From assembly GCF_001542625.1 (NCBI RefSeq), contig NZ_CP016279.1, positions 10,602,001 to 10,666,000 on the forward strand: a stretch of 64,000 nucleotides of DNA. The letters are read 5' to 3'. The number at the start of each line of letters is the position of its first letter. Within the stretch, counting starts at the first letter, position 1. Shown one piece after another: positions 31,326 through 37,887 of the stretch. Below the pieces are notes generated by a model. The model searched no databases and had not been told where the DNA came from. It was given only the letters and a program-made list of their open reading frames with translations. Both the position numbers and the translations under genes were made by a program. The DNA is from Streptomyces griseochromogenes (GTDB lineage Bacteria; Actinomycetota; Actinomycetes; Streptomycetales; Streptomycetaceae).

Positions 31326-31685
31326 CTATTCGACGGCGGACAGACTGACCGACTCGGCGCGGGGCTCGCCCGGCGCCACGATCTCCGTACGCCGTCCCCG
31401 TCCCGCCAGCCGGCAGCCGACGCACCCCGGATGCCCCTGCCGGGCCTCGGTGTCCCGCACGCGCATCCCCCACCGCTCCCGCGGCCGCACACCCGGCGGC
31501 TTGCCCCAGCCGGACAGATGCAGGGCCCAGGTGACCAGAACACTCACGCCCACGATCACCAGCCCGCCCACGAGGGCCGGAACGGAGACCGTGCACACCC
31601 CGAGCCCCACCACACCGCTGCCGACGGCCGCGATACCGGTGCCGGTCCAGCCGGCGATCGTGTGACCCTCGTCGTACAGACTCAT
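31326..31685 (-). CDS. HGxxPAAW-like small membrane protein with C-terminal CxxC
   Basis: A 119-residue protein: EGHTIAGWTGTGIAAVGSGVVGLGVCTVSVPALVGGLVIVGVSVLVTWALHLSGWGKPP gives two TM helices in the arrangement of the streptomycete HGxxPAAW family. The cytoplasmic C-terminus includes GHPGCVGCRLAGRGRR, a CxxC that could bind metal. Function unknown. Divergent from the MarR gene at 31769. Confidence 0.7.
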   Translation of the reverse strand: MSLYDEGHTIAGWTGTGIAAVGSGVVGLGVCTVSVPALVGGLVIVGVSVLVTWALHLSGWGKPPGVRPRERWGMRVRDTEARQGHPGCVGCRLAGRGRRTEIVAPGEPRAESVSLSAVE

Positions 31686-31719
31686 ACAGCCGCCTCCAGG
31701 GACGAGACTCCCTCACGGA

Positions 31720-31763
31720 CTAAGAAATTCATCACTCGAATATCTCACGAGCTAAGGGATTCA
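31720..31763. promoter_or_regulatory. direct repeat CTAAGRRATTCA in the divergent promoter region
   Basis: CTAAGAAATTCA (31720-31731) and CTAAGGGATTCA (31752-31763) are 32 bp apart, about three helical turns, in an AT-richer stretch immediately before the MarR start at 31769. The second copy covers the ribosome-binding region, suggesting autorepression. Confidence 0.55.
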
Positions 31764-31768
31764 GGAAG

Positions 31769-32260
31769 ATGGACGGCACGACCCGACCGCCCGCCACCCC
31801 GGCACAAGCGCTGTCGGCCATGGACCACCTCATCGCCGCCCATGTGATCGGGCAGCAGGAGCTGGCCCGGCGGCTGGGGGTGAACGTCACCGATCTCACC
31901 TGTTTCGCCTTCGTCCTGGAGGCGGGCGAGAACCTGCTCACGGCCGGCGACCTCGCGGCCCGCGCGCATGTCACCACGGGCGCGGTCACCGGCATCCTCA
32001 ACCGCCTCGAACGCGCCGGCTACGTCATCCGCCGCCCCGACCCCTCCGACCGCCGCAGGGTCCGGGTGGCCGCCGTACCGGCCGCCGTGACCCGGGTCGA
32101 GGCGGTGTACGCGGGCCACTACAAACGCCTGACGGACCTGTTCGCCGACTACGACCCCGCGGAACTGGCGGTCATCACCGACTGGTTCACCCGGGCCACG
32201 TCCCTCGCCCACGAGTACCTGGAGAAGCTGAACAGGAACGACCCGGAGGAGGAGTGCTGA
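31769..32260 (+). CDS. MarR family transcriptional regulator
   Basis: A 163-residue winged-helix protein with DLAARAHVTTGAVTGILNRLERAGYVIRRPDPSDRRRVRVAAVPA (recognition helix and DRRRVRV wing) and long dimerisation helices at both ends. Ribosome site AGGAAG. No transporter or enzyme follows directly (the next gene is convergent), so the target may be itself or the divergent membrane-protein gene. Confidence 0.88.
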   Translation: MDGTTRPPATPAQALSAMDHLIAAHVIGQQELARRLGVNVTDLTCFAFVLEAGENLLTAGDLAARAHVTTGAVTGILNRLERAGYVIRRPDPSDRRRVRVAAVPAAVTRVEAVYAGHYKRLTDLFADYDPAELAVITDWFTRATSLAHEYLEKLNRNDPEEEC

Positions 32261-32267
32261 GCCGGCC

Positions 32268-32690
32268 CTAGAGCATGTCTCGCCACCACGGAGCGTCCGG
32301 GCCGGCGGCCGGGATGACCTCGGCTCTCGTCAGAATCCTCTCGTCGAGGGCGCGCACGCGTGCGCGCAGCTCGCGGGCGCTCTTCCTGGGCAGCGCGTGC
32401 AGCACGGCCTCCAGGTGATCGCGGAAGCCGGCGCCGTTGCACCCGCACTCGGAGATGCCGCAATCAGGGCCCGCGAACGGGTCCGCGAGGTACCTGAGCG
32501 GGCCGTGGGCGAGTGCCTTCCAGTGCCAGAACGCCTCTTCCGTGGCTTCGGGCCCGAAACGGGTCCGTGCCAGCCGGCGGAGGTCGGCCGTGCAGGATCC
32601 GGAGAGGCGGTCGATGAGCGGATAGCGCCGCCGCCTCGGGAGACGGACGGGAAGCTCGCTCCGCAGAGCTGACGGGCGCCTACGCGGCAT
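32268..32690 (-). CDS. conserved hypothetical protein
   Basis: A 140-residue protein: Arg/Pro-rich start, then LIDRLSGSCTADLRRLARTRFGPEATEEAFWHWKALAHGPLRYLADPFAGPDCGISECGCNGAGFRDHLEAVLHALPRKSARELRARVRALDERIL. The CGISECGC cysteine cluster is the only motif and might bind metal. No family recognised. AAGGGG upstream of ATG 32690. Confidence 0.6.
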   Translation of the reverse strand: MPRRRPSALRSELPVRLPRRRRYPLIDRLSGSCTADLRRLARTRFGPEATEEAFWHWKALAHGPLRYLADPFAGPDCGISECGCNGAGFRDHLEAVLHALPRKSARELRARVRALDERILTRAEVIPAAGPDAPWWRDML

Positions 32691-32810
32691 CGCCCCTTCG
32701 ACTGTCGGTCATGACGGCAGGCTAGGCACCCGCGTCTCGGGTGGCCACCGCTTATCGCGCCCCGCACGATGGGCAGGGGCGTCCGACAGCGAGGAAACGG
32801 AACAGCGACC

Positions 32811-33254
32811 ATGGACATGAGACTCGAGGTCGTGGTGATCCCGGTCGCCGACGTCGACCGGGCCAAGGCCTTCTACGAGGGACTGGGATGGCGGCTGGAC
32901 GCCGACGTCGCCAAGGGTGACGACTTCCGCGTCGTACAGGTGACCCCGCCCGGCTCGCCCGGCGCCGTCATCTTCGGCACCGGGCTCACCTCGGCGGCCC
33001 CGGGTTCCGCGGAGGGGCTGCACCTCGTCGTCTCCGACATCGAGGCGGCCCGGTCCGAGCTGGCCGGCCGCGGTGTGCGGGTGAGCGAGGCCTTCCACGA
33101 CGCGGGCGGGGTCTTCCACCGAGCCGGGACCGAGGGGCGGGTGTCCGGCCCGGACCCGGAACGCCGCAGCTACGCCTCGTTCGCCTCCTTCAGCGACCCG
33201 GACGGCAACGGCTGGGTACTGCAGGAGATCACGGCGCGGCTGCCGGGCCGCTGA
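32811..33254 (+). CDS. VOC/glyoxalase-like protein
   Basis: A 147-residue vicinal-oxygen-chelate protein: MRLEVVVIPVADVDRAKAFYEGLGWRLDADVAKGDDFRVVQVTPPGSPGAVIFG and C-terminal SFSDPDGNGWVLQEI. First metal-ligand position is Glu/Val rather than His, second (W-x-LQE) has Glu; so a metal-dependent dioxygenase or glyoxalase role is possible but not certain. The next gene follows after 11 bp. Confidence 0.85.
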   Translation: MDMRLEVVVIPVADVDRAKAFYEGLGWRLDADVAKGDDFRVVQVTPPGSPGAVIFGTGLTSAAPGSAEGLHLVVSDIEAARSELAGRGVRVSEAFHDAGGVFHRAGTEGRVSGPDPERRSYASFASFSDPDGNGWVLQEITARLPGR

Positions 33255-33265
33255 AGAGGGCCGGC

Positions 33266-33985
33266 ATGGAGGAACTGCTCGCCGAGGCCCTCGAAGCCCA
33301 TGGCGGCATCGGGCGCTGGCAGGAACTGACCCGGGTACAGGCCACCATCGTCAGCGGTGGTGATCTGTTCGTCATCAAGGGGCTGCCCGAGGACCCCGCC
33401 CCCCGTCGGATGACCGCCCGGCTGCACGAGGAGCACGCCTCGGTACAGCCCTTCGGCGCTCCCGACCAGAAGACCGACTTCACGCCCGGACGAGTGAGTG
33501 TCGAAAAGCTCGACGGGCGCGTGGTCGCCGAACGCCGGGACCCGCGGGCCTCGTTCTCCGGGCACACCCTGGAGACGCCCTGGGACCCGCTGGACCGCGC
33601 CTACTTCAACGGCTACGCGCTGTGGACCTACCTCACCACACCCTTCCTGCTGGCCATGCCCGGCTTCACGGTCACCGGCATCGAGCCGTGGCGGGAAGGA
33701 GACGAGGTCTGGCCGGGACTGCGTGCCGCCTTCCCGGCCGGGATCGCCGGCCACAGCACCCACCAGGACTTCTACTTCGGCCCCGACCGGCTCCTGCGGC
33801 GCCACGACTACCACGTCGACGTGGCGGGCGGATTCGCCGCCGCGCAGTACGTCCACGACCCTGTGGAAGCGGACGGCATCGTGCTGCCCACCAGACGCCG
33901 GGCCTACCGCCGCGACACCGACGGTCGCCCTCTCCTGGGCCAGGTCATGGTCTCGATCGACCTCAGCGACATCCGCTTCGACTGA
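33266..33985 (+). CDS. conserved hypothetical protein downstream of VOC gene
   Basis: A 239-residue protein with no signal peptide. MEELLAEALEAHGGIGRWQELTRVQATIVSGGDLF, TPGRVSVEKLDGRVVAERRDPRASF, WTYLTTPFLLAMPGF and HSTHQDFYFGPDRLLRRHDYHVDVAGG indicate an all-beta, lipoprotein-localisation-factor-like shape similar to other actinobacterial hypothetical proteins. It is likely co-transcribed with the VOC gene. Function unknown. Confidence 0.7.
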   Translation: MEELLAEALEAHGGIGRWQELTRVQATIVSGGDLFVIKGLPEDPAPRRMTARLHEEHASVQPFGAPDQKTDFTPGRVSVEKLDGRVVAERRDPRASFSGHTLETPWDPLDRAYFNGYALWTYLTTPFLLAMPGFTVTGIEPWREGDEVWPGLRAAFPAGIAGHSTHQDFYFGPDRLLRRHDYHVDVAGGFAAAQYVHDPVEADGIVLPTRRRAYRRDTDGRPLLGQVMVSIDLSDIRFD

Positions 33986-34009
33986 GAGCCTTCGGGCGCG
34001 AGAGCCGGT

Positions 34010-34939
34010 TCAGCGGGTGAACAGCTCGGGCTTCGCCCGGACGAAATCGGCGACTCCGACGGGGGGCCGCCCGATGACCTGCGCCACGCCGTCCGACTCG
34101 CGGTCGTACCGGTTCTGCGCGTGGAGGCGAGCCATGGTCGAGATGTGCTGGAACACATGGTCCGGCAGGCCGAGCAGGCCGAGATCGTCGTCGAGCCACT
34201 CCTGAAGCGGGACATCGGTGTAGCTGACCGGCCGGCCCAGAGCCCCGGACACCTCCGCGGCCATGGCGGCGACGCCCTGCGACCGGGGCCCGGTCAGCTC
34301 GTAGACACGGCCGATGTGCGGCGTGGGGTCGGCCAGGATCTCCTCCACGACCGCGGCGACGTCATGCGCCGCCACCGGGGAGGTTCTCGCCTCGCCGAAG
34401 GGCAGCCTGATGGTGCTGTCGGTGGCGATGGAGGAGAAGCCGGCCTGGAAGAGCGGGTTCTCCATGAACACGGTGGGTCTGACCTGGACCACGGGCAGCC
34501 CCGACCAGTCGAGGACCTGCTCGGCCAGCCACTGCTGGCGCTGCTGGTCCGACTCCGAGGTGCTGGTCACGTCCATCTCGGAGACCGTCAGCTGCGACAT
34601 GTTCACGACCACGTCGAGACGGCCGTACGCGCGGGCGACCACCGCTGTCGTCACGGCGGCCTCCAGATACTGCGCCGACACGGCCATGCCGAAATACATG
34701 CGTCCGCAGCCGGCCAGGGCGTCGGCGACCTCGCTCGCGCGCGTGAGGTCGCCGACGACCACCTCGGCACCCGTCGCCCGCAGCGCCCGGGCGCGCTCGT
34801 CGTCCCGCCGCACCATGGCCCGCACGGGCAGGCCCCGTCTGCTCAGGCCCTCCACGACCGATCGCCCGACGGCGCCGATCCTGCCCGCGGCACCGGTCAC
34901 CAGGATGGGCCGCACGCCGGCATCCGGGGTGGTGTCCAT
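34010..34939 (-). CDS. NmrA-like NAD(P)-binding protein
   Basis: A 309-residue atypical SDR: PILVTGAAGRIGAVGRSVVEGL (GxxGxxG variant), VRAMVRRDDERARALRATGAEVVVGDL, VVNMSQLTVSEM and VQVRPTVFMENPLF are NmrA/HSCARG features. It lacks the YxxxK catalytic pair, so redox sensing or azoreductase-like activity is possible. Faces away from the following secreted-protein gene. Confidence 0.85.
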   Translation of the reverse strand: MDTTPDAGVRPILVTGAAGRIGAVGRSVVEGLSRRGLPVRAMVRRDDERARALRATGAEVVVGDLTRASEVADALAGCGRMYFGMAVSAQYLEAAVTTAVVARAYGRLDVVVNMSQLTVSEMDVTSTSESDQQRQQWLAEQVLDWSGLPVVQVRPTVFMENPLFQAGFSSIATDSTIRLPFGEARTSPVAAHDVAAVVEEILADPTPHIGRVYELTGPRSQGVAAMAAEVSGALGRPVSYTDVPLQEWLDDDLGLLGLPDHVFQHISTMARLHAQNRYDRESDGVAQVIGRPPVGVADFVRAKPELFTR

Positions 34940-35244
34940 AGCGGAAGCCTGCGGCCCCGGCGGCAGGGGTGCAACCGGAGTGACCTGATCGCACCGTCAT
35001 GGCGAACAGCCGGCGGCCGGACGGTCCCCGGGACGTCGCCCGGAAGCGAGCGACAACCCCTCGGGTGTGGCCGACAGTTCGGGCCGTGCCCGCGCGGCCT
35101 GCTGCATTGGCATCACCGTCGTCACCGGGTCGGGGGACTACCCCGTCGCCCGGCGAGCAGAACATCTCGGACAAATGTGACTATCACCCCAAGGTGACAT
35201 GGCGGCTCCCGGCCGTCACCACAGCTGGCAGGAGAACCACATCG
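34940..35244. other. 305-bp divergent intergenic region
   Basis: Separates the NmrA-like gene from the secreted-protein gene. I see no gene, RNA or strong palindrome. AAATGTGACTATCACCCC near 35173 is the only AT-richer patch and may hold the promoter of the secreted protein. Confidence 0.4.
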
Positions 35245-35613
35245 ATGAACCTCACCCTGGGGCGCCTGCTCGGCGCCACCGCGGCGGTGGCCATGGGGGC
35301 CACGGCCCTGCTCGGCACGGGCGCCGGCACAGCCGACGCCCGTGGCGAGCGCGCACACTGCGACCGTGCCGAACAGCCCATATGGATCGACGACCCCAGC
35401 CGCAACGTGACCGCCCACGGCTGCAGCGTGCCGGACAGCGACCACCGCTGGTACATCGTCGAGGTCGACACCCTCGTACAGCCCCACCACAAGACGGAGT
35501 ATCTGAACGGAGCGGTCGACCGGACCAAGACCCTGCACAACCGAACCATCAGATGCCTGGGCTACACCTCCGACAAGGACACGGTGAACTGGTTCGGCTG
35601 CGTACCCAACTGA
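35245..35613 (+). CDS. small secreted protein of unknown function
   Basis: A 122-residue product with a classical signal peptide (MNLTLGRLLGATAAVAMGATALLGTGAGTADA). The mature ~90 residues contain four Cys (HCDRAEQ, HGCSVPDSDHRWYIVEVDT, RCLGYTS, FGCVPN), enough for two disulfides, and several aromatic residues. GGAG lies 11 nt before ATG 35245. No family recognised; possibly a small secreted inhibitor or toxin-like domain. Confidence 0.65.
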   Translation: MNLTLGRLLGATAAVAMGATALLGTGAGTADARGERAHCDRAEQPIWIDDPSRNVTAHGCSVPDSDHRWYIVEVDTLVQPHHKTEYLNGAVDRTKTLHNRTIRCLGYTSDKDTVNWFGCVPN

Positions 35614-35656
35614 CACATCCGCCTGACGGCTCCGTTGCCGTACAGCCCTGAAGGTC

Positions 35657-35686
35657 CAGGGGCCCCGGATTCCTCCGGGGCCCCTG
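35657..35686. terminator. terminator hairpin, GGCCCCGGAtt type, copy 1
   Basis: A 12-bp perfect stem CAGGGGCCCCGG / CCGGGGCCCCTG around ATTCCT, 43 bp after the secreted-protein stop. The rest of the 35614-35914 gap contains nothing else I can name. Its core GGCCCCGGATTCCTCCGGGG nearly equals the hairpins at 36310 and 37776. Confidence 0.85.
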
Positions 35687-35914
35687 TTCCGTGCGCACCG
35701 GGCAGGACCGAGCCGCACCAACAGCGCGGGGAGTACCGGGCGTTGGACCCACAGGACTCCTCGAAGGGCCCTCGTCCCCTCGGCCCCTCGCCCCCCTGGT
35801 CCTCGGTCTAGGTCGCGGGTCGGAGCAGGACGGGACCATGGACGGATGGCGCCGGGCCGGGCGGTCGCTAGCGTGGAGAGCGGTTCCGGCACCCAAGGGG
35901 AAGGAGGCCGACCG

Positions 35915-36301
35915 ATGGCAGTCGAACTCAACCACACCATCGTCGCCGCGCACGACAAGACGGCGTCCGCACGGTTTCTCGCGGATCTGCTGGGTCTGGA
36001 GGTGGCACCGGAGTACGGTCCGTTCGTCCCGGTGCAGATACCGAACGGCGTGACACTGGACTACATGGACACGGCCGATTCGATCGCCCCGCAGCACTAT
36101 GCGTTCCTCGTCTCCGAGGACGACTTCGACGCGATCTTCGCCCGGGTCCGCGAGGCGGGCCTGACCTACTGGGCGGACCCGTATCACCACCACCCCGGCG
36201 AGATCAACCACAACGACGGCGGCCGCGGGACGTACTTCGAGGACCCGAACGGACACAACCTGGAGATCCTGACCAGGCCGTACGGAAGCGGAGAGGACTG
36301 A
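35915..36301 (+). CDS. VOC family protein
   Basis: A 128-residue vicinal-oxygen-chelate protein: VELNHTIVAAHDKTASARFLADLLGLEVAPEYGPFVPVQIPNGVTLDYMDT, DDFDAIFARVREAGLTYWADP, GRGTYFEDPNGHNLEILTRPYG. His and Glu at the metal-ligand positions (NHT; HNLEI) are present, so it may be an active metalloenzyme. ATG 35915 has GGAGG eight nt upstream. Terminated by a hairpin at 36310. Confidence 0.88.
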   Translation: MAVELNHTIVAAHDKTASARFLADLLGLEVAPEYGPFVPVQIPNGVTLDYMDTADSIAPQHYAFLVSEDDFDAIFARVREAGLTYWADPYHHHPGEINHNDGGRGTYFEDPNGHNLEILTRPYGSGED

Positions 36302-36309
36302 AAAGCCGG

Positions 36310-36333
36310 AGGCCCCGGATTTCTCCGGGGCCT
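36310..36333. terminator. terminator hairpin, copy 2 (between VOC gene and rpoA)
   Basis: AGGCCCCGG / CCGGGGCCT around ATTTCT, 9 nt after the VOC stop and about 60 bp from the rpoA stop. Being palindromic it serves both convergent genes. Confidence 0.85.
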
Positions 36334-36391
36334 GCGGTCACGCGCGGGGGACGTGATCGGCACAAGGTCCGCCGACCACCTTGCGCAGTGT

Positions 36392-37408
36392 TCAGTACTG
36401 CTCGGTCTCCATGAAACCCGTGTTCCCGTTGTCGTCCGCGTCGAAGGCGGCGGCGGTCGGGTCGAATCCGGGCGGGCTGTCCTTGAGGGCCAGGCCCATG
36501 CCGGCCAGCTTCGCCTTGACCTCGTCGATCGACTTCGCACCGAAGTTGCGGATGTCCAGGAGGTCGGCCTCGGAGCGCGCGACCAGCTCACCCACGGAGT
36601 GGACGCCCTCACGCTTGAGACAGTTGTAGGAACGGACCGTGAGCTCCAGCTCCTCGATCGGCAGCACGAGGTCGGCGGCCAGGGCGGCGTCCGTGGGGGA
36701 CGGGCCCATGTCGATGCCCTCGGCGTCGATGTTCAGCTCGCGGGCGAGACCGAACAGCTCGACCAGGGTCTTACCGGCCGACGCCATGACATCGCGCGGA
36801 CGCATCGCCTGCTTGGTCTCGACGTCGACGATCAGCTTGTCGAAGTCGGTGCGCTGCTCGACACGGGTGGCCTCGACCTTGTACGTGACCTTGAGAACCG
36901 GCGAGTAGATGGAGTCGACCGGGATACGGCCGATCTCCTGGCCCACCTGCTTGTTCTGCACGGCGGAGACGTAACCGCGACCGCGCTCGACGGTCAGCTC
37001 CATCTCCAGCTTGCCCTTGCCGTTCAGCGTGGCCAGGACCAGGTCGGGGTTGTGCACCTCGACACCGGCCGGGGGCGCGATGTCGGCGGCGGTGACCAGA
37101 CCCGGACCCTGCTTGCGCAGGTACATCACGACCGGCTCGTCGTGCTCCGAGGAGACGACCAGCTGCTTGATGTTGAGGATCAGGTCGGTGACGTCCTCCT
37201 TGACGCCCGGCACGGTGGTGAACTCGTGCAGCACGCCGTCGATGCGGATGCCGGTGACGGCGGCACCCGGGATCGAGGACAGGAGGGTACGACGCAGGGA
37301 GTTGCCGAGGGTGTAGCCGAAGCCCGGCTCCAGCGGCTCGATCACGAACCGGGAGCGGAACTCGTCGACGACCTCTTCGGTCAACGAGGGACGCTGAGCG
37401 ATCAGCAT
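36392..37408 (-). CDS. rpoA: RNA polymerase alpha subunit, stand-alone copy
   Basis: A 338-residue, full-length alpha subunit. The N-terminal domain has [29 protein letters not shown] and [10 protein letters not shown]; the C-terminal domain is intact ([63 protein letters not shown]), including the Arg/Asn/Cys DNA- and activator-contact positions. It reads as nearly the S. coelicolor protein as I remember it, with conservative differences and a divergent acidic tail ([16 protein letters not shown]). The usual neighbours rpsM-rpsK-rpsD before and rplQ after are absent; instead it is flanked by a VOC gene and tRNA-Arg. ATG 37408 is 12 nt from AAGGA, with GGATC-T-GATCC between. A functional second alpha, or a relocated only copy, cannot be told apart from this window. 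Confidence 0.95.
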
Positions 37409-37775
37409 GTGTGGATCAGATCCTTCATTCGTGGACGCCCGCCATTTGACGCCCGACGGAATCCGCAGCCGTGAAAAGTGCGGGTACTGCAAGAGTACGT
37501 GTGTCTGCCGGCAGGTCGGCGAGCCCAGCCCCTTCCAAGCCCCGGTCGTGTCGGCTCCCCGGCACTTCGCCGTGGGACTTTGCCGGGCTCCCACGCGTGC
37601 GGTGGTTCGGCCCCCTGGCCGCGGGCTCCTGGGATCGGGCAGCGTGTCGTGCGGGCACTCGGCCCTTCTCCGGACTGATGGCGGTGTTTGTGATGCACCG
37701 GCAGTTGGCCGATCTCCCTTCGGTTGAACCGGCCACAGCTCCGTGGACTCGTCCGAGATCGCCCGGCAAGGAAAC
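37409..37775 (-). promoter_or_regulatory. upstream region of the stand-alone rpoA
   Basis: No rpsD remnant or other gene is visible. Two small palindromes: GGATC-A-GATCC (37413-37423), overlapping the ribosome-binding region of rpoA, and GTACT-GCAAG-AGTAC (37484-37498). No convincing -10/-35 could be assigned. The region ends at the terminator of the upstream tRNA-Arg, so rpoA must have its own promoter here. Confidence 0.5.
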
Positions 37776-37809
37776 GCAAGAGGCCCCGGATTTCTCCGGG
37801 GCCTCTTGC
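37776..37809 (-). terminator. terminator of tRNA-Arg, hairpin copy 3
   Basis: A 14-bp perfect stem GCAAGAGGCCCCGG / CCGGGGCCTCTTGC around ATTTCT, starting 5 nt beyond the tRNA 3-prime end. The core is identical to the hairpin at 36310. Confidence 0.9.
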
Positions 37810-37814
37810 CTGTG

Positions 37815-37887
37815 TGCACTCGGCAGGATTCGAACCTGCAACCTTCTGATCCGTAGTCAGATGCTCTATCCGTTAAGCTACGAGTGC
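37815..37887 (-). tRNA. tRNA-Arg (anticodon ACG)
   Basis: Acceptor GCACTCG/CGAGTGC with A73; anticodon stem TCTGA/TCAGA around CTACGGA gives ACG; T-arm GCAGGTTCGAATCCTGC. A34 is the substrate of TadA, encoded at 12052. CCA is not encoded. Confidence 0.97.

Follow-up and report, generated by a model that had tools for sequence, protein, structure and literature searches.

A stand-alone rpoA gene of Streptomyces griseochromogenes as a probable member of a circulating family of second RNA polymerase alpha genes in Streptomycetaceae

The genome of Streptomyces griseochromogenes contains, apart from its canonical rpoA, a stand-alone gene for the RNA polymerase alpha subunit which, in our judgement, probably belongs to a horizontally circulating family of second-alpha genes of the Streptomycetaceae and has been converted by the resident rpoA. 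RNA polymerase subunits are usually treated as single, vertically inherited core genes. If our reading is true, horizontal transfer can make the polymerase differ among antibiotic producers, part of the published kind of rpoA phylogeny is mosaic, and polymerase heterogeneity in Streptomyces becomes a direct question for knockout and proteomics. In the available portion of PMC13118837, rpoA is placed among the conserved Streptomyces core genes.

An intact rpoA between a VOC gene and tRNA-Arg

The window, i.e. the whole stretch of 64,000 nucleotides that was analysed (C1:10602001-10666000), comes from a single-contig genome of 10,764,674 bases with 0.82% contamination. An earlier note, made from the letters of the window, had described a complete, isolated rpoA with a VOC gene on one side and tRNA-Arg on the other, and the coding sequence, the Pfam domains and the flanking genes all confirm this. 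The gene lies on the minus strand at 36392..37408 (ATG at 37408, stop codon ending at 36392) and encodes 338 amino acids in an intact frame in which extra-type and canonical-type sequence are mixed. In the Pfam search the dimerisation, insert and C-terminal domains (PF01193, PF01000 and PF03118 respectively) were all above cut-off, and the protein covers the full 340-residue alpha chain of PDB 7vpd. On one side is the VOC/glyoxalase gene (35846-36301, plus strand) and on the other tRNA-Arg(acg) (37814-37887, minus strand), which adjoins the insert.

Homology to the canonical locus by blastn extends over 36392-37499, and this match, the comparison of leaders and the leader sites together define 37409..37499 (minus strand) as a leader segment of canonical type. 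It contains GAAGGA, which from its sequence and from comparison with canonical leaders resembles a canonical-type ribosome-binding site, 12 nt before the ATG (37421..37426, minus strand), as well as a 7-bp hairpin, GGGCGTC-AAATGGCG-GGCGTCC (37433..37454, minus strand), of the form that covaries in canonical leaders. With such a leader the expression of the window copy probably resembles that of the resident gene. A search of the upstream 370 bp for known RNA elements gave none that was convincing, and a consensus scan found no sigma-70-type promoter. In addition, the plus strand at 37527..37577 retains a 17-residue remnant of a small divergent RID-like gene (76% identical across its 17 aa in tblastn, with E 4e-4), which forms a 52-nt blastn match with the intact RID-like gene at the second extra rpoA locus of this genome (L007); a Pfam search with the remnant frame returned no match.

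The segment between a marR gene and tRNA-Arg, with approximate limits of 32300..37780, is absent from the relative G040. DNA homologous to the marR region (window 31383-32193) ends about 0.2 kb before tRNA-Arg in G040 (L299) and about 1.1 kb before it in G033 (L289), compared with an interval of about 5.5 kb in the window. An ‘empty site’ at the VOC gene was considered and discarded, as the VOC homologues in G007, G009 and G011 have no tRNA within 3.4 kb, and the tRNA side was used instead. The window rpoA is flanked on both sides by a hairpin, GGCCCCGGATTTCTCCGGGGCC, of which the genome has only two exact copies. These form the 22-nt core of two repeats that are 91% identical over 34 nt, one downstream of both the VOC gene and rpoA (36300..36333) and the other terminator-like for tRNA-Arg (37771..37804). 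A third copy with one mismatch stands before the VOC gene, and the terminator-like hairpin is found three times in succession around single genes next to tRNA-Arg (35661-35682, 36311-36332 and 37782-37803), with 0 expected in shuffles. In each of the 24 relatives examined a broadly similar hairpin stands at tRNA-Arg, with no second copy in the approximately 1.5 kb of flank covered. That the flanking repeats mark insertion joints is a conjecture.

Three rpoA genes in one genome

A whole-genome search found three full-length rpoA genes, namely the window copy, a second extra copy (L007, C1:5723559-5724569) with 99% amino acid and 97.1% DNA identity to it, and a canonical copy (C1:905045-906064) with 97% and 95.2% identity respectively. 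The canonical copy is intact and, alone among the three, has both rpsK and rplQ in its locus, which refutes the suggestion that the only rpoA of this genome had moved. The other suggestion of the earlier note, a second alpha beside the canonical gene, stands with an intact canonical copy and a constrained extra one, and has to be widened by a third copy that had not been foreseen. The gene order given there as normal, rpsM-rpsK-rpsD-rpoA-rplQ, is right as to rpsK and rplQ, which flank the canonical gene, but here rpsK directly precedes rpoA with no rpsD between. Duplication of the whole polymerase was rejected, within the scope of rpoB and rpoC, because each of these is single in this genome (PF04563 and PF04997 searches).

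The window and canonical alphas differ by few and conservative substitutions, just as had been proposed, and up to residue 230 there are two differences, at positions 53 and 207. These substitutions gave no direct sign of changed contacts with activators or sigma factors. The tail of the extra alpha in this genome is distinct from the canonical one, AFGADDDADAGFVETEQY; this tail and the VTG/PRDV residues to which attention had been drawn are common to L007 and so are not unique to the window copy.

An assembly artefact or contamination is a rival explanation. In several draft genomes copies do break inside rpoA at shared tracts, and the hybrid locus L118 (G177), described below, is a possible misjoin. 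Against this, the present genome is one contig with the contamination given above, its three copies differ in their DNA (95-97% identity) and in their flanks, and the conversion pattern is no weaker in genomes with five contigs or fewer. Misassembly or contamination of this genome is very unlikely, and as an explanation of the extra genes in general we consider artefact extremely improbable.

Distribution in genomes, plasmids and phages

We searched 393 same-genus genomes (at least 95% complete) for rpoA matches at E <= 1e-20. Two or more matches were present in 81 of them, approximately a fifth, and one match in the remaining 312; draft-assembly fragments are all that is known of some of the 81, and a few of these could be pieces of one gene. 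Prevalence climbs with genome size from 1/65 (2%) below 7.5 Mb, through 8/119, 17/105 and 29/65, to 25/38 (66%) at 10.5 Mb or more, in rounded sizes, with the partly masked G021 omitted and with no correction for phylogeny. This climb favours the view that the extra gene merely provides more alpha, as a dosage or back-up copy that is useful or tolerated in very large genomes and has no special function, and so does the conversion described below, which keeps its sequence near canonical. However, rpoB and rpoC are single here and alpha alone would not raise the amount of polymerase, and large genomes are richer in accessory genes of any kind, the association being uncorrected for phylogeny. A dosage role is a reading that we find possible, while leaning against it.

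Of 121 genomes drawn from across the family, 93 belonged to other genera, and 15 of these had more than one rpoA match, several as fragments. Within this range the genus g42 had a second match in 0/27 genomes, and its sister genera often have one. Outside the family, no second full rpoA was found in 15 same-order and 24 same-class genomes. As an isolated case, rpoA in the one-contig genome G378 is found only in fragments, two N-terminal and two C-terminal, spread over four places and with residues 119-179 missing, perhaps through a scaffolding error at a shared tract.

Extra copies are also present on plasmids. A tblastn search of plasmid sequences returned 87 records with an alpha match, 21 of them from Streptomyces, and the 20 matches listed were all from Streptomyces, at 88-96% identity. 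Six plasmid records were inspected, five linear and one circular; a stand-alone rpoA is annotated in five, and in the sixth it is unannotated. The family leader pattern (see below) found 54 stretches in the GTDB collection, from Streptomyces or other Streptomycetaceae except for one named ‘Actinobacteria bacterium’, and in 54/54 an alpha N-terminus follows the leader, while the end of rpsK lies just upstream in 0/54. The chromosome record of S. noursei carries this leader twice, in both cases ahead of an alpha N-terminus. The same pattern had 0 matches in IMG/VR, and in phage records no alpha of at least 60% identity occurred among the matches listed (20 of 23 records); a phage origin was rejected on these two results. 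The earlier note had not foreseen a widespread family, found on plasmids and at varied chromosomal sites, to which the window copy probably belongs.

For the analysis of loci we assembled 88 extra and 79 canonical rpoA genes, a canonical gene being defined by rplQ in its locus and an extra gene by its absence. When loci are joined if they have over 1500 nt in common outside rpoA, 58 of the 88 extra loci stand alone and 30 fall into 12 groups; at 500 nt only 22 stand alone, the grouping then being largely by single linkage, and when only same-strand matches longer than 400 nt in a similar position relative to rpoA are counted, 55 are single and 33 form 13 groups. Some of the flank-sharing groups consist of a pair of copies from a single genome (G286, G434 and G455). 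No mobility gene was consistently linked to the extra loci, and we infer their movement from their distribution. The travelling unit would be the leader plus the coding sequence (approximately 1.1 kb), extended in a subset to approximately 1.9 kb with a small divergent gene, and would be carried on plasmids and genomic islands. Against a travelling family it can be said that chromosome arms reshuffle anyway and that the flank sharing in 30/88 loci is perhaps partly a matter of descent.

Leader, 3' end and ancestry of the extra genes

Most extra genes differ from the canonical ones in their leader. rpsK is present in 0/88 extra and 77/79 canonical loci, and most extras share the leader ...TGTCTACGGCGTCACATAGCGGGCGCCAAACCACTGGAGGCAACACCTC-GTG. 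The family leader has the form ...GTCACATAGCGGGCGCC...GGAGG...GTG, with a GTG start in 64/88, and the Streptomyces-type canonical leader is mostly ...GTCAAATAGCGGGCG.CC...GAAGGA...ATG. We compared the two classes in FastTree trees of 164 genes (86 extra and 78 canonical), for which support values are not quoted and in which the rows are not independent. The tree of the leader alone required 4 changes of the extra/canonical label, compared with a shuffled mean of 54.6, that of codons 240-stop required 13 (shuffled 54.6) and is less clean than the leader, and that of the leader plus both ends required 4 (shuffled 54.9), with the extra gene's own canonical copy as its nearest canonical in 0/77 cases.

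In this combined tree the window copy, L172 and L129 are the only extras, among those with their own canonical gene, that are nearest to a canonical row. All three carry a canonical-type leader in place of the family type, and L007, the sister copy of the window gene, has the family-type leader. The 3' end of the window rpoA (951-1000) matches L007 and not the canonical gene, and in its stand-alone position and mosaic structure it agrees with the family; we call it a converted relative of the extra-rpoA family. As extra-like leaders are seen on some canonical genes, both in other genera (e.g. G506 and G496) and in the same-genus genome G008, which has a single rpoA match, the family may have its origin in a canonical rpoA of an early or a sister lineage. 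One locus, L118 (G177), combines a family-type leader with a canonical tail and has rplQ downstream and no rpsK found, and is either a crossover product or a misassembly.

Immediately upstream of the rpoA ribosome-binding site, the canonical leaders contain a hairpin of 7 bp, GGGCRTC-AAATAGYG-GGYGCCC. It occurs in 17 distinct forms with compensatory changes in 4/7 pairs, and its covariation score was reached by 0/500 shuffles, although 48/500 equalled it in how many pairs had both partners altered. The hairpin is recognisable in 74/88 extras by the anchor used and is intact in the window copy. Rfam gave no family in the leaders of four loci and the window stretch, and detected the L17 leader downstream in three of them; the hairpin may be an undescribed rpoA leader element.

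Probable conversion of the middle of the gene by the resident rpoA

The middle of the gene follows the host. The tree of residues 56-235 for the same 164 genes required 58 changes of label (shuffled 54.5), and in it the nearest canonical gene was that of the same host in 50/77 extras (host-shuffled mean 1.1, maximum 6). Over these residues an extra gene differs from its own canonical gene by 3.5%, compared with 6.6% when hosts are shuffled (z -26.8). The corresponding values are 7.7% and 10.0% for residues 240-310 (z -15.0), 10.3% and 11.3% for residues 1-14 (z -4.0), and 13.5% and 13.6% for residues 310-338 (z -1.0). Among genomes with no more than five contigs (44 pairs, 40 genomes), the own canonical gene was jointly closest in 32 pairs (residues 56-235), 14 (240-310) and 3 (310-338); this recurrence of the pattern indicates that collapse of draft assemblies is not its cause. 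The longest identical run with the own canonical gene has a median of 207 nt and a maximum of 575, with a median of 79 for other hosts. Mantel correlations with the canonical distances were r 0.26 and 0.10 for the extra ends and 0.44 for the extra centre, a contrast that is suggestive only, since canonical ends against centre also gave only 0.44.

Shared ends with a host-like middle are the pattern of interlocus gene conversion, and the resident rpoA would appear to convert the extras repeatedly. That conversion weakens towards the ends may be a matter of simple geometry, the flanks being heterologous, and selection on the ends is possible. That conversion reaches the alpha-CTD, and slightly residues 1-14 (the z values of -15 and -4 above), speaks against the explanation by a travelling, converted family, which we nevertheless regard as the probable one. 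Through conversion of the N-terminal domain the surfaces used in assembly would go on fitting the host polymerase, and the leader, the tail and part of the alpha-CTD would remain of family type.

The window gene illustrates this at close range. In comparison with the other two copies of the genome, its informative sites in leader and coding sequence fall into 10 runs, compared with 33.5 expected and with 0/10,000 shuffles as low, and those within the coding sequence into 8 runs compared with 18.5. The leader up to the ATG is canonical-like, 157-177 is extra-like, 505-561 holds eight changes unique to the window copy, 612-805 is mostly extra-like, 816-849 is canonical-like and 951-1000 is again extra-like. 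Since the gene is such a mosaic, its divergence from the canonical copy gives no simple date for the duplication. In this genome the family would be present twice, the window copy lying in an island on the tRNA-Arg side and having taken up a canonical-type leader. Conversion also seems to run in the reverse direction, from extra to canonical; e.g. the canonical rpoA of G405 has family-type codons at 259, 269, 276 and 277 and a 575-nt identical run with its extra copy, and V269 occurs in 1/78 canonical genes.

Relation to known duplicated alpha genes

In Francisella, rpoA1 and rpoA2 provide an alpha1-alpha2 heterodimer (Mukhamedyarov et al. 2011, PMC3294249; our statements on this paper refer to its available portion). 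The likeness to our case is that there are two non-identical full-length alphas, one encoded in the ribosomal operon and one elsewhere; the difference is that the Francisella duplication is described as lineage-specific, with fast divergence and sub-functionalised interfaces (PMC3294249). In Streptomycetaceae the second gene is spread among species, is approximately 97% identical to the host gene and is apparently repeatedly converted, and with positions 53 and 207 as the only differences up to residue 230 the window alpha does not show interface divergence of the Francisella type that enforces heterodimers. The same portion of PMC3294249 counts a second rpoA of S. avermitilis MA-4680 among ‘fairly recent’ duplications, which resembles ours as a second rpoA in the same genus type and differs as a single instance there. 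The conversion pattern suggests that Streptomyces extras look recent because their middle has been converted. Duplicates in Chloroflexus are likewise two alphas, possibly still functionally equivalent according to the authors, but in the available portion that duplication is ancestral to the Chloroflexus species and is not described as mobile (PMC3294249).

Concerted evolution by interlocus gene conversion, in which paralogues within a genome are closer than orthologues and some islands keep their difference, is a further parallel (PMC2720389 and PMC3728101, in their available portions), from which the present case differs in pairing a core gene of the polymerase with a gene that occurs also on plasmids. 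Our searches of the open-licence PMC literature turned up no account of a Streptomyces rpoA family that circulates, is mobile or undergoes conversion. Duplicated alpha genes, including that of S. avermitilis, were already known in 2011, and the circulating, converted rpoA family would be what is new here.

Selective constraint and capacity to function

Among 400 random pairs per class, which are not independent, dN/dS between extras was 0.106 for residues 2-239, 0.139 for residues 240-310 and 0.281 for the tail, and that between canonical genes was 0.047, 0.007 and 0.065 respectively. The extras are under purifying selection, looser than that on the canonical genes. Of the DNA-contact motifs of the alpha-CTD, VRSYNC is kept in 86/86 extras and NFG.KS.DEV in 81/86; these are the regions of E. 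coli R265/N268/C269 and G296/K298. The family-type changes are I269V (64/86), V276L (32/86) and indels in the tail. V269 is also found in the PDB alpha u218, presumably a mycobacterial protein. Full-length frames were present in 86/88 fetched extra loci, a fetch that favoured full-length matches, and the remaining two, L154 and L156, are shortened at the C-terminus.

From these sequences the extras probably make an alpha that is able to enter polymerase. Such an alpha would be expressed from its own leader, and would dimerise and assemble like the resident alpha to give polymerase with one or two alternative alphas. It must be set against this that the looser constraint also fits slow decay and that conversion itself imports constrained sequence. 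Three readings of function, of which dosage is one, lie inside the explanation by family and conversion and are not alternatives to it. The extras might be passengers, i.e. frequent plasmid or arm duplicates that decay slowly, are homogenised by recombination and bring no benefit. The looser constraint and the two shortened copies agree with this, but dN/dS is near 0.1 (in part perhaps imported by conversion), 86/88 copies are full-length, and leader and hairpin are mostly kept; we consider passengers unlikely.

A small RID-like neighbour and a possible specialised role

In eight genomes, one of them from another genus (G506), the extras share a block from approximately -0.5 to -0.9 kb to approximately +1.1 kb, beyond whose limits the DNA differs; G106 aligned only in part. 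This block carries a gene for 73 amino acids, transcribed away from rpoA, whose matches to two folds that interact with RNA polymerase are weak and below cut-off, with 21.8 bits for CarD_TRCF_RID (cut-off 23) and 15.7 bits for PcrA_UvrD_tudor (cut-off 23.9). By tblastn the RID-like gene is found in 17/88 extra loci including the window remnant, divergently within 3 kb in 14 (remnant included), and no match was obtained in the other 71 extra loci or in any of the 79 canonical loci, most of the latter being short (3-8 kb). Here it is intact 1.8 kb upstream of the second extra copy, with another copy elsewhere in the genome. In a chosen set of genomes at E <= 1e-6 it matched 30/40 with a single rpoA and 40/40 with several, a few of these matches falling in frames of over 800 aa. 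It would thus be a tempting partner, linked in a subset and not constant. A scan for other partners among ORFs of at least 80 aa near the extras gave only generic families, in up to 7 genomes.

A specialised alpha, with altered contacts of the alpha-CTD and tail to activators or UP elements, maybe together with the RID-like protein, might act in development or secondary metabolism, a reading already sketched in the earlier note. Consistent with this are the family-type tail and CTD changes, a tail that is independent of the host beside a host-following centre, a family leader with its own GGAGG and mostly GTG, and the RID-like gene near 17/88 extras. However, the substitutions are conservative and both DNA-contact motifs are kept in nearly all extras, V269 being shared with u218; the canonical-type leader makes separate control of the window copy not obvious; and the RID-like gene is common in genomes without an extra rpoA and absent by tblastn from 71/88 extra loci. 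We think a specialised role somewhat unlikely. A bolder proposal, which we put forward tentatively and hold to be rather doubtful, is a plasmid-borne exchangeable alpha, accompanied at some loci by the RID-like protein, which would be fitted to each host by N-terminal conversion, would keep its own control region and tail so as to form an alternative-alpha polymerase, and would occasionally be written back in its alpha-CTD into the essential rpoA, as in G405. Separately, an ORF for a putative RNase J lies within 3.4 kb of the extra rpoA at L131, L145 and L162 (G428, G314 and G315 respectively).
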